From: Planctomycetota bacterium
GTDB lineage: Bacteria; Planctomycetota; Phycisphaerae; WQYP01
DNA: 64,000 bases
Direction of reading: 5' to 3'
NCBI GenBank assembly: GCA_021805985.1
Contig: JAJZDN010000009.1
Span: forward strand, 1-64,000
The notes below the pieces were generated by a model. That model searched no databases. It was not told the DNA's origin and worked only from the letters and a program-made list of their open reading frames with translations. The translations under genes were made by a program, and so were the position numbers. Positions within the stretch are counted from its first letter, which is position 1; each line of letters begins with the position of its first letter. Positions 16,164 through 56,818 of this stretch are shown piece after piece.

Positions 16164-16525
16164 GAGTGACCGCCGGGTTGCGACGGCGTGATTTTCGGCG
16201 TCGCCCGGCCGCATCGTGTGATAGAGCACCGTCGTGATAAGCCGGTGGTTGGTTGGCGGCATCGGATCGACCACCGGATTACCATCCGGTGCTATCGGGG
16301 CGCGGCGCGTCATGGAGCGTCGTGGTGGTAACCCGGTGGTTGGTTGGCGGCATTGGATCAACCACCGGATTACCATCCGGTGCTATCGGGGCGCGTCGCG
16401 TGATAGGCCGCCGCGGTGGTAACCCGGTGGTTGCTTGGCGGCATTGGATCAACCACCGGATTGCCATCCGGTGCTATCGGGGTGCATCGTGTGATAGAGC
16501 ACCGTGGTGATAACCTGGTGGTTGG
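16164..16525. repeat. 91-bp tandem repeat array, member of a dispersed repeat family
   Basis: Units begin with the CCGGTGGTTGGTTGGCGG motif at 16242, 16333 and 16424 and, degenerate, at 16514, giving a period of 91, 91 and 90 bp. Each unit holds a 10-bp inverted repeat (CCGGTGGTTG ... CAACCACCGG) and an 8-bp hairpin (CACCGGAT-TACC-ATCCGGTG). The left flank (16164-16241) matches 20724-20801 and, inverted, part of 56.66-56.82 kb. The array lies between the MNT gene and the PAP2 gene. No protein is encoded: 91 is not a multiple of three, and the frames drift. Confidence 0.85.
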
Positions 16526-16638
16526 TCATTGACATCCGACGCCATCCGCGCCATCATCCGGGCTGGAGCGTCAGCGTGGCTGGTGCGCCGGATGCCTGTC
16601 CGTGTAATGGACCGGGCGTCGTATTTAAGAGGTTATTA

Positions 16639-18065: not shown

Positions 18066-20261
18066 TTATTTGATAAACAGCATTTCACGGTACGTCGGCA
18101 ACGGCCAGAGGTCGTCGGAAACGATGGTCTCCAGGAGATCGCCGGCTTGCCGAACGGCGTTCATGGCAGGAATTAGTTTATCTAGCGAATACTTGGCATG
18201 GGCCAGCGTATCACCGGCGGCGTGATGATCAGAATGATGCGTTAGTGCATCGGTTTTTTTCTGCATGTCACTGATGGATGTTGCCAGGCCGACGAGCATT
18301 TTTTCCTGTTCCGCCAGAGCCGCCGCCGGAACTCCTGCTGCCTTGGCCGCCCCGATGGACTTGCCGACATTTTTCTGATATTCCAAAGCTGCTGGAATAA
18401 TCATGGTCTTGGCGATCACCGTGGTCATCTGCACTTCGATGTTGATCGTCTTGACATATTTTTCCAGATAGATTTCATAGCGGCTGTGAACTTCACGTTC
18501 CGTAAGTACCTTGTACTTGCCGAACAGCTCTACGGCTTCTTTGGAAATCAGATGGGGAACGGCATCAACGGTGGTTTTCAGATTTGGCAGGCCGCGTTTT
18601 TCGGCTTCTTTGTGCCATTCTTCCGAATAGCCGTTGCCGTTGAAAATCACGCCCTTATTTTCTTTGATCACCGCGGCCAGCAATTCCTGTACGGACTTGT
18701 TGAAATCCTTGCCGGCCTTGTGGTCGGCTTCCAGTTTGCCGGCGATGTAATCAAGGGATTCGGCGACGATGGTATTGAGCACCGTGTTGGGTGTGGCAAC
18801 GGATTGCCCCGACGACACTGCACGGAATTCAAATTTGTTGCCGGTGAAGGCGAACGGTGAGGTACGGTTACGATCTCCGGCATCACGCGGCAGCTTGGGA
18901 AGTACGGTCACGCCGACTTCCATGTGGCCGCCCTTCTTGGTGCTCTTGGCACCACCGGCTTCAATTTGCGTGATGATGTCCTGCAACTGATCGCCAAGAT
19001 AAATGGAGATGATCGCGGGCGGCGCTTCATTGGCCCCCAGACGATGATCATTTCCCGCCGAGGCGATTGCTACTCGCAGCAGAGCGGCATGTTTATTAAC
19101 CGCCCGGATAACCGCGGCACAAAATACCAGGAACTGGGCGTTTTCATGCGGCGTATCACCGGGGTTGAGTAAATTTTCCCCGGTATCGGTGGCCATGGAC
19201 CAGTTGTTGTGCTTACCGGAACCATTGACGCCGGCAAACGGCTTTTCATGCATCAGACATGCCAGGCCGTATTTCTCGGCAACGCGACGCAGCGTTTCCA
19301 TCGTGAGCATCTGATGGTCGTGAGCCAGATTGCTGTTCTCAAAAATCGGGGCGATTTCATATTGGGCGGGTGCCACTTCATTGTGGCGAGTTTTTACCGG
19401 CACGCCCAGTTTGTAAAGTTCCTGTTCCGCTTCCAGCATGCAGGCCAGAACGCGTTCGGGAATGCTGCCAAAATAGTGATCTTCCATTTCCTGACCCTTG
19501 GGCGGTTTGGCCCCAAACAGGGTGCGGCCGGCATTGATCAGGTCCGGGCGGGCAAAATAGAAATTGCGGTCGATGAGGAAATATTCCTGTTCCGGGCCAA
19601 CGGTGGTAAATACTTTTGTGGCACTGTGATTGCCAAAAAGTTTCAGCACCCGCATGGCCTGGATGGAGAGCGCTTCCATGGAGCGCAGGAGCGGGGTTTT
19701 TTCATCCAGTGCTTCCCCGGTCCATGAAACAAACGCGGTGGGAATAACCAGAGCCGTGCCGTTGGGGTTTTCTAAAATATAAGCCGGACTTGTAGGGTCC
19801 CAGGCGGTGTAGCCGCGGGCCTCAAAGGTGGCCCGGATGCCGCCGGAGGGGAAAGATGAGGCATCAGGTTCGCCCTGAACCAGTTCCTTACCGGAAAATT
19901 CGAGCATCGCGCCGCCGTCCTCGGTGGGCGCGACAAAACTGTCATGTTTTTCAGCGGTAACGCCGGTTAACGGGTGAAAAATATGGGTGTAGTGGGTAGC
20001 GCCTTTTTCCACGGCCCAATCCCGCATGGCCGCCGCCACCACATCCGCGATGGTGGGATCCAGCGCCAGACCCTTTTTAATGGTCTGTTGCAGTTTTTTG
20101 AATACCGGCTTGGGCAAGCGGGCTTTCTGGACTTCTTCATTAAACACATTACTGGCGAAAATTTCCTTAACGGTCTTTTCCTTGAAATTTACGCGTGGTG
20201 GAATGGTTCGGAAGTTGGTTAGTGCGACTACCGCCGCATGACGAGCATTTGATGCACCCAT
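18066..20261 (-). CDS. glnN: Glutamine synthetase type III
   Basis: This enzyme makes glutamine from glutamate, ammonia and ATP. At 731 aa it is of the GSIII type, much longer than GSI (about 470). Typical GSIII segments are [68 protein letters not shown] (with the catalytic-site Glu residues), [13 protein letters not shown] and [22 protein letters not shown] chose ATG 20261, with AGGAG upstream; the frame continues to 20369 but lacks conserved sequence there. The gene is monocistronic: a strong terminator follows and over 700 bp of repeat-rich DNA precedes it. No PII or ammonium transporter gene is nearby. Confidence 0.97.
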
Positions 20262-20711
20262 AACTGAAAGACTCCTGTAGAAAAGCGACTCACGACTATC
20301 CGCCGAAAAATTCAAAGCGGCTCCTTTCGGGAAAGGCGGCCATTTTACCCGACACCGCAAAACTGGCAATATAAAGCATCCGAATTCTTGAGCGAACCAA
20401 CAAATGCGTCATTTTTGGGCATTTCCAATCCGCCGGTTTTGATTGCAAAAGATTCAAAGCCCTCCGATTGACCTTTCCCAATCACCCTTAACGCGAAACT
20501 CCGCGTTCCGCGCCGAAATACATCCCAATGCTGATAAAAGCATCAGAAAGACCTTTCAGATTATTATAATGCAAGCAGCGTGCCGATGGTGAAACTGGAG
20601 TTTATTTTTATTCTTATGCTTAATTTGAATGCACAGGAAATTAAACCCGCCAATCTACGCCCGCTTTTTAAGCAGTCCCTGTGCGACCAGACGGCCTGAG
20701 CCCGGCCAGCA

Positions 20712-21058
20712 AGGAGCCGGTCCAAGTAACCGCCGGGTTGCGACCGCGTTATTTTTGGATTGCTGGCGGCGCATCGCGTGACAGAGCACCGTGGTGATAA
20801 CCCGGTGGTTGGTTAGCGGGCCGAGGTTACGGGTTACGGGGGACAGGTTGCACGGGGCGTAATTGCAGTATTATCAGTACATTCGGAGATTGGAACCTAG
20901 AACCTGGAATCTGGAATCTGGAATGTCGAACGTACTGCCAATACTGATAATACTGAATGTACAGCCAATACTTGTCCCCTGTAACCCGTAACCTGTAACC
21001 CGTAACCCCATCCGCCCCGGCGGCACGGGATCAACCACCGGATTGCCATCGGGTGCTA
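20712..21058. repeat. Dispersed repeat copy interrupted by a long palindromic insertion
   Basis: The left part (20712-20819) aligns with 16164-16259 and, inverted, with 56.7-56.8 kb. The right part (about 21013-21058) continues the same repeat (GATCAACCACCGG, then GATTGCCATCGGGTGCTA). Between them sits an unrelated element at about 20820-21012. Its arms, 20825-20845 (GGTTACGGGTTACGGGGGAC) and 20973-21007, are imperfect inverted repeats, with further pairing around AGTATTATCAGTA and TACTGATAATACT. Thus one element is nested in another. The repeat ends within the aroDE stop codon (TAG from CTA at 21056-21058). No gene is visible from 20262 to 21055. Confidence 0.75.
20901..20924. repeat. 24-bp repeat, inverted relative to 44279-44302
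   Basis: This is an exact reverse complement of 44279-44302; it consists of AACC followed by tandem TGGAATC units. It forms the loop of the palindromic element at 20.82-21.01 kb. Confidence 0.8.
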
Positions 21059-22651
21059 ATCGCGCGCCATCGCCGCTTCTGCCGCAACGCGCATAACGCT
21101 CAACGGTGCAGATTTGCCCGTGAAGCCCTGAAACTGGACCACTGCCTGGCGTACCAGCATCTCCAGGCCCTCAATAGTCTGGGCACCTTGTTTTGCCGAA
21201 ATATCCAGAAAACGTGTTCGCCGCGGATTATAAACTGTGTCAAAAACCACCATGGTGGAATTAATGACCGTCATATCATCTACCGGAGTGGTTTTGACAT
21301 GAGGGGACATGCCCGCCGGCGTACAATTGATGACTACACTGCAATTCGTTTTACTAAATTCATCCAGCAGCGCTGCCGACACATGGCCGATTTTTCCGTT
21401 GAATTCATACGCCAGTTCCTGGGCACGCTTCAGTGTGCGGTTGTACACCACCACCGTCGCTCCCAGGGAGGCCATGCCCGCAACCATGGCTCGTGCCGCT
21501 CCGCCCGCGCCCAGCACGGCCACACGTTTGAATGCCAGGTCGGTTAAATTCCAGCCCGTGGCGGCACGCATGGCTTCGATGGCTCCATACCAGTCAGAAT
21601 TGGTGCCGGCAACCGAACCATCAGATGAAAAATAAAGCGTATTAATAACCCCGATGCGGGCCGAGGTCTCATCCAGCATACCCACAGAGCTTTCCAGATA
21701 CCGTGCCGCATGGGCCTTGTGAGGAATGGTGACGCTGGCACCGCGAAAATTTAAATCTCGCAGGCCACGCAGGGCATTAACCGTAGCGCAGAATGCCTCA
21801 TATTCCGGTGCAATGGGCAGCGGCACATACACGCCCGGAAAGCCAACGGAATGAAAACCCGCGTTGTGTATCATCGGGCTGATGGAATGCGATACCGGCC
21901 ACCCCATGACACCGTACACGAGGGAGTTTCGCACTTGGCTTTTGAAATGGTAGGTGTGAATCAAATCTGTAATCGTCGGTTGGCCGGGAGCGGTTGTAGC
22001 GCCGCCTGCAGGAATGGCAAAGGTGAAGGCAGCATTGTATTTAGCGGCCAGAACCCGCGTGATCAGCCCCGCTTCACCCATGGCAATAATCACCAACGGT
22101 TGTCTGACAGCTTTCGGCAGTTCCTCATACAAGCGAAACGCCTCCAACGCTTCAACCAGATTTTCCGCTTGATAGGCGGCTTTGATAATACATGCCGGTG
22201 ATATCTCGGCCATGGCAGTCAGGCGCTGCTGCAAATCCGGCGGACGGGAGGAAAAATCATGCGTGGACAGAATTAACTTCGGCCTGCCTGAATTATCTGT
22301 GGGATCTTTTGCCAGCAAGGGCACCGCCTGGGCGACAAATTCAGGATTTTTTTGCCAGGTGGCATACTCGATATCCACGTACTGCGGTTTCAGCCGGCAG
22401 GCGTGAAGAATCAAATTTAGCCGATCCGTTTCGGATCCGGAAAATAGTCCGCCCTCTGCTTTGGCGCGAACCGTGACGATAATCGGCTTGCAACGTATCT
22501 CAGGGCGACCGAGGAGGGCTTCAATAATTTCTCGATTGGCCTGGTCACAGCGCAGCTCAATGATATCGGCGCCTTGTTTCACAGCGTCGGCCATTTGCGG
22601 TAACACCGCATCAACGGACTGAACGAATATGGGCGCAACGATATCGGTCAT
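21056..22651 (-). CDS. aroDE: Fused 3-dehydroquinate dehydratase (type I) / shikimate dehydrogenase
   Basis: This 531-aa bifunctional enzyme covers the third and fourth steps of the shikimate pathway. Residues 1-235 form a type I dehydroquinase with the catalytic His in ILSTHDFSS (His131) and the Schiff-base Lys in CIIKAAY (Lys157). Residues about 243-531 form shikimate dehydrogenase: YGVMGWPVSHSISPMIHNAGF (shikimate-binding Ser pair), SVTIPHK (catalytic Lys), GTNSDWYGAI (Asp), the NADP-binding GAGGAARA and NRT motif, and NCTPAGM. The same fusion order is known in plants, chlamydiae and planctomycetes. It is last in a leftward gene run and overlaps nfo by 4 bp (ATGA). The stop codon lies in a dispersed repeat. 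Confidence 0.96.
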   Translation of the reverse strand: MTDIVAPIFVQSVDAVLPQMADAVKQGADIIELRCDQANREIIEALLGRPEIRCKPIIVTVRAKAEGGLFSGSETDRLNLILHACRLKPQYVDIEYATWQKNPEFVAQAVPLLAKDPTDNSGRPKLILSTHDFSSRPPDLQQRLTAMAEISPACIIKAAYQAENLVEALEAFRLYEELPKAVRQPLVIIAMGEAGLITRVLAAKYNAAFTFAIPAGGATTAPGQPTITDLIHTYHFKSQVRNSLVYGVMGWPVSHSISPMIHNAGFHSVGFPGVYVPLPIAPEYEAFCATVNALRGLRDLNFRGASVTIPHKAHAARYLESSVGMLDETSARIGVINTLYFSSDGSVAGTNSDWYGAIEAMRAATGWNLTDLAFKRVAVLGAGGAARAMVAGMASLGATVVVYNRTLKRAQELAYEFNGKIGHVSAALLDEFSKTNCSVVINCTPAGMSPHVKTTPVDDMTVINSTMVVFDTVYNPRRTRFLDISAKQGAQTIEGLEMLVRQAVVQFQGFTGKSAPLSVMRVAAEAAMARD

Positions 22652-43471: not shown

Positions 43472-44209
43472 ATGACGCAAGCCACCAGAATTGCCACCCC
43501 GGAACAATTGCACGCCATTGGAGCCATGGCAGCGGAGCTTATTACCAGTGGACAGGCAGTAGGTCTGGGCAGCGGCAAGGCATCCCATGCGTTTGTAAAA
43601 ATGCTGGCCCGGCGCGTCCGGGAAAATGGCTTGAATATTATCGGTATTCCCACCTCTGAATCCACAGCCCGCCTGGCCAGAGAACTGGGCATACCGTTGG
43701 GCAGCCTGGAAAATATCACGCGCCTGGACATTGCCGTGGATGGCGCCGATGAAGTTGACCCCACGCTGAACCTTACTAAGGGCGGAGGCGGTGATTTACT
43801 GCGGGAAAAAGTTATCGCGTCCATTGCGCAGCGTTATGTGGTGGTGGTGGGCCAGGAAAAGCTGGTGGAACATATAGGCTCGCGCTTCCCGGTTTTTGTC
43901 GAAGTGGTAGAATTCGCCATGCCGGCGGTTATTCGCGCCTTGGCCGCTCTCGGGGCTACCACCACGCCGCGCATGACCGCGGACGGTAAACTTTTCCGCA
44001 CCGATAACAGCAATCCCCTGCTGCACGCCCGCTTTGATCCATCCGATGCGCAACTCCTGCAACCGGCAATTCTGGATCAGACCATACGCAATATTCCCGG
44101 CACCATTGAAACCGGTTTATTTCTCAACAAAGCGGACGAAGTGCTGGTAGCGAACTTTGACGGCACAGTACAGACGCTGCACCGCGGGGGCGGCTTAGGA
44201 CGCAGTTAG
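43472..44209 (+). CDS. rpiA: Ribose-5-phosphate isomerase A
   Basis: RpiA interconverts ribose 5-phosphate and ribulose 5-phosphate. The 245-aa protein has GLGSGKASHAFVKML, IPTSESTARLARELGIP, DIAVDGADEVDPTLNLTKGGGGDLLREKVIA (catalytic Asp, Lys and Glu residues) and TDNSNPLLHARF. It completes, together with zwf, gnd and tal elsewhere in the window, most of the pentose phosphate pathway. GGA precedes the ATG. Confidence 0.96.
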   Translation: MTQATRIATPEQLHAIGAMAAELITSGQAVGLGSGKASHAFVKMLARRVRENGLNIIGIPTSESTARLARELGIPLGSLENITRLDIAVDGADEVDPTLNLTKGGGGDLLREKVIASIAQRYVVVVGQEKLVEHIGSRFPVFVEVVEFAMPAVIRALAALGATTTPRMTADGKLFRTDNSNPLLHARFDPSDAQLLQPAILDQTIRNIPGTIETGLFLNKADEVLVANFDGTVQTLHRGGGLGRS

Positions 44210-44230
44210 GAGTTGGGAGTTAGAAGGCGG

Positions 44231-44302
44231 AATCGCCAAGGGCGATTGGCGAGCAAAATATTAGCGCACTTCCGGAAAATTCCAGATTCCAGATTCCAGG
44301 TT
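44231..44302. repeat. Intergenic hairpin plus inverted copy of the 24-bp repeat
   Basis: AATCGCC-AAG-GGCGATT (44231-44247) is a perfect 7-bp hairpin that can also shift to CGCCAA / TTGGCG. Positions 44279-44302 are the exact reverse complement of 20901-20924. The stretch 44210-44454 between rpiA and the UreF-like gene has no other gene. Confidence 0.7.
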
Positions 44303-56447: not shown

Positions 56448-56818
56448 AGGAGCCTGTCCGAGTAATGGCCGGGATTGCGATGGGGCTGAAATGTCCCGTA
56501 TGCGCGGCGGAGGATCGAGCCGACTCTTAATAATGAGTCTGCGAGATCCGACAACAAAGCAGACGGGGCATTTCAGGCCCACCCGCAGGGCGGTGTGCTT
56601 TTTGGCCCCCCTCTGCGGCGCGGCTCCTCGGAGTACCATCCGTGTCAGGTACGCCATCGTCGCCGTTTCTTGTGGAGCACCGGATGGTTAATCCGGTGGT
56701 TGATCCAGTGTCGCCAACACACCACCGGGTTATCACCACGGTGCTCTATGACGCAACGATGTCCCGACAAGCCAAAAATCACGCCGTCGCAACCCGGCGA
56801 TTACTCGGACAGGCTCCT
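56448..56818. mobile_element. MITE-like 371-bp element with 19-bp perfect inverted ends
   Basis: AGGAGCCTGTCCGAGTAAT at 56448-56466 is matched exactly in reverse complement at 56800-56818. With three mismatches the terminal repeat extends to about 33 bp. No reading frame of transposase size lies inside. The right half (56660-56818, minus strand) belongs to the same repeat family as 16164-16525 and 20712-21058, where the end motif AGGAGCC is also seen at 20712. The right end abuts the GH130-like stop codon and the left end is 73 bp upstream of the transporter start. A target-site duplication was not identified. Confidence 0.55.

Follow-up and report, generated by a model that had tools for sequence, protein, structure and literature searches.

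How did a palindrome of about 204 bp come to lie inside a copy of a dispersed repeat? This question is raised by a locus in the window, that is, the whole stretch of 64,000 nucleotides analysed here (contig JAJZDN010000009.1, positions 1 to 64,000, Planctomycetota bacterium, assembly GCA_021805985.1). The window belongs to contig C74 of G000, the genome of the uncultured host, which is a 4.68-Mb draft with 197 contigs and 95.5% completeness. A split copy of the repeat is located between aroDE and a glutamine-synthetase-like gene, at positions 20713-21058 (Table 1). An earlier note, made from the letters alone, had described a palindrome nested in a copy of the dispersed repeat, and this description was borne out. 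Its estimate of ~190 bp for the insert was corrected to ~204 bp, because window positions 20814 and 21019 abut in the related genome G007 in the BLAST comparison. The right arm of the surrounding hairpin supplies the stop codon of aroDE (21056-21058; TAG|CACC), and the same fused end is found in G007.

Table 1. Positions in the window of the nested palindrome, its host repeat and the neighbouring genes. D, host repeat; H, hairpin; A and B, shells of the insert; C, its loop.
Feature	Positions	Strand	Basis or remark
Tandem array of H hairpins, empty loops	16210..16526	+	91-bp period, 3.5 copies
Glutamine-synthetase-like gene	18066-20369	minus	
Left part of truncated D (MITE-like), reaching left arm of H	20713..20811	+	comparison with complete copies
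D terminal repeat GGAGCCGGTCCAAGTAACCGCCGGG	20713-20737	+	TIR pattern match, 3 mismatches
Hairpin H, left arm GAGCACCGTGGTGATAACCCGGTGGTTG	20784..20811	+	exact left-arm pattern match, 1 of 83 in genome
Duplicated target, left copy AGCGG (consensus GGCGG)	20815..20819	+	comparison with empty loops
Inserted palindrome, ~204 bp including one duplicated-target copy	20820..21018	+	flanks abut in G007; borders common to other filled loops
Outer shell A, left arm: heptads GGTTACG GGTTACG GGGGACA GGTTGCA	20825..20852	+	sequence, inverted repeat
Inner shell B, left arm: 9-nt words (CAG-N6)	20859..20884	+	inverted repeat, fold
Loop C: TGGAATC heptads, 4.9 copies	20891..20924	+	Tandem Repeats Finder
Inner shell B, right arm (TACTGCCAATACTGATAATACTG...)	20932..20971	+	inverted repeat, fold
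Outer shell A, right arm: TGTCCCC TGTAACC CGTAACC TGTAACC CGTAACC	20973..21007	+	sequence, inverted and tandem repeats
Insert right border CCATCCGCCCC	21008..21018	+	alignment of inserts
Duplicated target, right copy GGCGG	21019..21023	+	sequence, G007 comparison
Hairpin H, right arm; last bases are part of aroDE stop	21029..21056	+	pattern match, 2 mismatches; translation
aroDE	21056-22651	minus	shikimate dehydrogenase and 3-dehydroquinate dehydratase
Complete 369-bp D, H loop empty	56449..56817	-	inverted TIR pair 369 bp apart; sequence

The insert had been described as an imperfect inverted repeat with a TGGAATC loop, and it turned out to be so: its arms are 79-87% paired around the heptads of the loop. 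Three inverted-repeat pairs were found, namely 20811-20848/20970-21007 (79%), 20825-20847/20978-21000 (87%) and 20859-20879/20942-20962 (86%), and GTAACCC heptads occupy 20981-21008 in the right arm. The ends of the insert are GCCGAGGTTACGG and CCGTCCGCCCC. Terminal inverted repeats are absent at these very ends, where GCCGA... and ...CCGTCCGCCCC are not inverted copies, and the inverted arms start 5 and about 11 nt inside. The 289-nt hairpin folds as DNA with -72.7 kcal/mol (z -7.8) and as RNA with -133.3 (z -7.6), and none of 200 shuffles reached so low a value in either case. There is no sign that the insert codes for anything. The word TAACCCGTAACC occurs, with at most one mismatch, 4 times in the window against 0.21 expected, all within the palindrome. 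Other copies, which had been proposed as a check, are abundant in G000, where BLAST gave 69 places and exact TAACCCGTAACC was found 47 times against once in the reversed control.

The "dispersed repeat" named in the earlier note is a real repeat, and it is itself an inverted repeat whose loop serves as the insertion site. Complete D is 369 bp long, begins with GGAGCCTGTCCGAGTAAT and ends with ATTACTCGGACAGGCTCC, and has TA-like flanks; TA was found beside the 11 complete copies 6 times on the left, 8 times on the right and 4 times on both sides. There are 92 D ends in G000 (at most 3 mismatches; 0 in the reversed control). Among them, 17 inverted pairs of GGAGCCTGTCCGAGTAATNGCCGGG (at most 3 mismatches) lie 45-370 bp apart, so that D has terminal inverted repeats. 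With the same ends, D occurs in size classes of 45-54 bp (4 copies), 277-278 bp (6) and 362-370 bp (7), and the 369-bp and 277-bp forms differ by a block of 92 bp, hairpin H, which the longer one has in addition. A length of 45-370 bp and 92 ends agree with short, non-autonomous elements in many dispersed copies. No inverted pair of D ends 0.38-4 kb apart, as an autonomous D would have, was found among the 92 ends of G000, which is a draft, and drafts often break at insertion sequences (IS). We regard D as a non-autonomous, MITE-like family, not tied to any named family.

The loop of H is conserved and 13 nt long (GTTGGCGGCACTG). Searching G000 for its arms (at most 3 mismatches) gave 83 left and 71 right arms, while reversed controls gave 0. 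Pairing of these arms yielded 35 empty loops of 11-13 nt and 4 filled loops of 136-217 nt; two further spacings (98 and 105) belong to neighbours in tandem arrays. By looser matching in the window and 60 fetched stretches, which were picked by matches and are thus neither a random sample nor independent, 80 left arms led to 49 empty loops (11-14 nt), 6 filled loops and 25 cases without a right arm within 330 bp; among these 25 are truncated copies as well as some filled loops whose right arm is damaged (e.g. L094, minus strand). The uninterrupted copies reported at 16.2-16.5 kb are real and form the tandem array of Table 1. Other tandem arrays of H are located at G000:C3:4740-5870 (~153-bp period), C33:102577-102900, C88:51790-52310 and C116:22300-22570 (~91 bp).

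Relatives provide both states of the same sites. The empty site that had been asked for exists at aroDE in G007, a genome of the same genus as G000, where the same D copy follows aroDE and its loop, filled in G000, is uninterrupted (GGTTGGTTGGTGGCACTGGATC). The opposite direction was seen for G007:C77 (filled) versus G000:C71 (empty), with five bases, GGCGG, common to the two flank alignments; contig C77 of G007 contains a 2,052-bp stretch identical to JAKBCC010000047.1 (Planctomycetota bacterium isolate ZJ5.bin40). G007:C179 is filled and G000:C113 empty, and G007:C172 is filled as far as the contig end, with G000:C115 empty. In all, four orthologous sites that are filled in one genome and empty in the other, one of which runs into a contig end, reveal precise insertion with target duplication: 5-bp GGCGG at one and 4-bp GCGG at the window's. 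The note's GCGG at both borders is present at 20816-20819 and 21020-21023. Its reading as a target-site duplication stands for the cleanest pair with 5 bp, GGCGG, and holds imperfectly at the window copy, where the 5' side reads AGCGG. These orthologous sites show, in both directions, that the palindrome entered the loop of H always at the same point and that 4-5 bp were duplicated. Two other sites gave partial comparisons: at C158, where A may lie outside H, relatives match only one flank of the query, and at C175 (rpmF) the array is absent in G006, whose left neighbour differs.

These pairs bear on the idea that the composite, D with H and A inside, transposes as a unit and that filled copies never entered existing H loops. 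Several filled copies do have extra letters left of the border in common (TCCTGCGG, G000:C5 and C42), as this idea would have it. Nevertheless, it is contradicted at the four loci (one cut by a contig end), where both species have the repeat with H and differ in the insert alone. Composite transposition could still explain part of the other copies, and overall we consider it improbable.

The aroDE site itself has a patchy history. It lacks D in G002, G004, G005, G006 and a fragment of G003, and G001 gave no aroDE match. Identities over aroDE and its flanks fit ((G000,(G005,G006)),G007),(G002,G004). D is present there in G000 and G007, yet G005 and G006, which are closer to G000, lack it, a pattern that calls for loss, recombination or transfer. 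This distribution would count against simple vertical descent of D at aroDE, not against insertion into the loop. It also matters for the view that the hairpins are kept for a role in RNA, for example by terminating transcription of aroDE and genes like it or by stabilising their 3' ends. Such a role might fit the z of -7.6 for the predicted fold on the aroDE strand and the fact that the copy begins at the aroDE stop codon. However, where the site can be read in relatives, a repeat of this kind is missing after aroDE in 5 of 6, the Rfam search of the window gave 0 matches at the gathering score, and neither state shows a sign of being preferred, so that a retained RNA function seems doubtful. 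Selfish or neutral accumulation is the parsimonious reading.

To describe the build of the insert, nine inserts were aligned, five from G000, three from G007 and one from G006; truncated inserts, those without a recognisable right arm and those with another shell (e.g. L365) were left out. The right border CC[G/A]TCCGCCCC is found in all nine and the left border GGGCCGAGGTTACGG is exact in seven of them, while the left border differs in L089 at 12731 (GGGGACCAGG). Within the same shell, two unrelated cores were found: core E in 7 of 9 inserts and core B/C in 2 of 9 (the window's and C116:33730). Core E consists of short hairpins, in C5 together with reversed GGAGTTA heptads. For the orthologous pair G006:C44 and G000:C116:36068, shell A is present in both and the cores are different, which is the main reason for favouring exchange by recombination through the common arms. 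Further to the earlier note, then, the host repeat is MITE-like with three size classes, and the insert is modular.

The shells consist of words of 7 or 9 nt that are repeated in tandem and inverted between the two arms. We counted successive arms of one word at most 300 bp apart (words A, B, C, E and F) over 273,036 bases, comprising the window and 60 match-chosen stretches: the G-rich arm came first in 39 cases, the C-rich arm in 3, and 44 had the same direction. This polarity, and the inverted tandem words themselves, would suit shells that grew in place by hairpin-primed or template-switching synthesis with slippage copying 7-9-nt words, no insertion being involved. The same shell, cores and borders at unrelated loci in three species, as well as the target duplication, speak against it; growth in place is an unlikely origin of the insert, and it may account for variation in heptad number. 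Over all word pairs (n=23), 10 were nested, 10 side by side and 3 crossing; one nested row, at L094, arises artificially from tandem copies next to each other. Nesting is no commoner than side-by-side order, which indicates that the concentric order belongs to the H-loop sites and is not a general rule.

Similar words occur outside the H loops. Two contigs, L092 (G000:C87:1-18275) and L087 (G000:C133:1-10950), contain dense arrays of 7- and 9-nt words (GGAGTTA, TGGAACC, GGATCAC, ATTATTC, CAGTAATTG) alternating with short GC hairpins, and they look like a repeat-rich region of its own. In the window, degenerate GGAGTTA-type and reversed TGGAATC heptads surround a short hairpin at 44202-44298, behind a gene end.

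We consider it likely that the locus consists of layered non-autonomous palindromes: D with its H came first, shell A then entered the H loop, and a founder insertion was copied among H repeats while cores were swapped. The shell A palindrome (GGTTACR heptads), surrounding one of the two unrelated cores E or B/C, entered the H loop at GGCGG with duplication of 4-5 bp, as the filled and empty orthologous sites show. The founder insertion would have been made by an enzyme acting in trans, and loops are probable targets, presumably by being single-stranded while the hairpin is extruded. From one founder, copies would then have reached other H repeats, chiefly by way of the 70-80 dispersed H arms, which would recombine or undergo gene conversion with one another; in the same manner, the A arms could have let cores be exchanged. 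Spread by recombination between repeat arms is favoured but unproven, and repeated insertion at one preferred site would also give identical borders.

This last point leads to the strongest alternative, in which every filled loop arose separately, by targeted insertion through a recombinase or transposase with specificity for the hairpin itself or for the sequence of the H loop, as is the case for some IS and REP palindromes. It would account for the single insertion point in the nine aligned inserts, for the 5-bp duplication, and for right-loop variants that retain their own letters past the border (GGCGGCA, GGCGACA), as local insertion would leave; several IS are described, in the available text of PMC1525189, to insert specifically into REP elements. 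On the other hand, no candidate enzyme was found, and among the 92 D ends there are no inverted ends 0.38-4 kb apart. G000 has seven Y1 transposase domains, at C58, C6, C137, C157, C64, C172 and C116:12065, and words A, B, C, E, F, H and D were found near none of the seven loci in fetched flanks of about 1.5 kb. A link to RAYT (REP-associated Y1 transposase) is thus not supported. We hold independent targeted insertion to be quite possible, with chances somewhat short of even.

For the distribution of these elements, the insert was searched in 61 genomes and matched 10 of them: all 8 of the genus, 2 of 20 from other genera of the family and 0 of 33 from other families of the class. The D/H query likewise matched 10 of 28 genomes (genus 8 of 8, other genera of the family 2 of 10, other families 0 of 10). 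Outside the genus, G024 has a single weak insert match (E 6.6e-4). G023 has weak matches on C37 and strong ones on C126 (1-3000), and the latter is 99.9% identical to G000:C195 over 2,987 bp; with such a near-identical contig, the strong matches were read as misbinning and not counted as spread beyond the genus. The same holds for G004:C66 (24700-26000), which is 99.9% identical to G000:C154 over 1,300 bp. By blastn, the insert had no match in the phage and plasmid collections, and the H arm had 0 matches in the viral contigs.

The heptads alone reach much further. The heptad triple GTAACCYGTAACCYGTAACC was found in at least 118 stretches from many phyla, and viral contigs contain it in 51 stretches. 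An inverted partner lies no more than 300 bp away at 9 of the 80 heptad-triple loci listed, two of the 9 being from ZJ5.bin40, and a Chloroflexi MAG (JAERMM010000166.1, L188 2570-2690) has inverted GGTTACA with TGTCCCC heptads, in which TGTCCCC joins TGTAACC as in the window's A arm. These cases indicate that inverted heptads are not unique to this genus. One might go further and imagine a dedicated process which recognises exposed hairpin loops and adds shells of 7- and 9-nt words, giving up to five or six layers (D ends, D body, H, A, B, C), and which also lies behind the heptamer repeats of several other phyla; we give this idea little credence.

Several known systems resemble parts of this structure. 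Like the bacterial MITEs Correia/NEMIS, ERIC/IRU and RUP, as described in the available text of PMC2229807, D is short, non-coding and dispersed, with inverted ends, a long hairpin and TA-like termini. An internal block distinguishes the 155-bp from the 107-bp form of the Correia element (same text), and the 369- and 277-bp forms of D parallel them. Compared by description, D differs from those MITEs in the second, modular palindrome in its hairpin loop, and the word "nested" occurs 0 times in the portion of that source available (PMC2229807). REP/BIME elements, as far as the accessible part of PMC1525189 describes them, are also palindromic repeats serving as specific landing sites for another element; their guests are full insertion sequences with a transposase, whereas the guest here is a non-coding palindrome of ~130-205 bp. 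REP-associated systems (TnpA-REP) have a linked Y1 transposase gene flanked by the palindromes, whereas the seven Y1 loci of G000 are free of these repeats within the flanks of about 1.5 kb. Besides, the mobile GC clusters of yeast mitochondria (PMC4478555, partial text) are likewise short, mobile and palindromic; they merge and shuffle, and recombination through their flanks exchanges them. They belong to another domain of life, have other sequences and target AG, and according to the same partial text their units merge, (PMC4478555), while here one palindrome occupies a fixed point in another's loop.

Short tandem heptamer repeats are also known from cyanobacteria, where they are called STRR. 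Heptamer tandem repeats are described with TAACTGA in Beggiatoaceae (PMC4679880) and with GGGNATC in Xanthomonas and Nostoc (PMC4692102). The words studied here are like them in being tandem, 7 nt long, intergenic and present in many copies, to judge from the accessible parts of both sources. The published heptamers are, in those parts, direct repeats (with one indirect repeat in Maribeggiatoa), whereas here several words are inverted as the arms of one palindrome (PMC4679880, PMC4692102). For nested palindromes of such a kind in Planctomycetota, we recognised no description in the literature when titles and the beginnings of abstracts were searched. Nested MITEs and mosaic palindromes are already known, and the modular palindrome inserted in the loop inside D is a new variant.

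In conclusion, the palindromes of this bacterial genus appear to be stacked one within another, in the manner of Russian dolls. Filled and empty orthologous sites make the order of events readable, from the host locus to D and then to the palindrome, with cores exchanged later, and they make loop-targeted insertion and palindrome exchange measurable within one bacterial genus. As the heptamers here are arms of mobile palindromes, they give the heptamer repeats of bacteria, noted long ago but unexplained, a tangible context.
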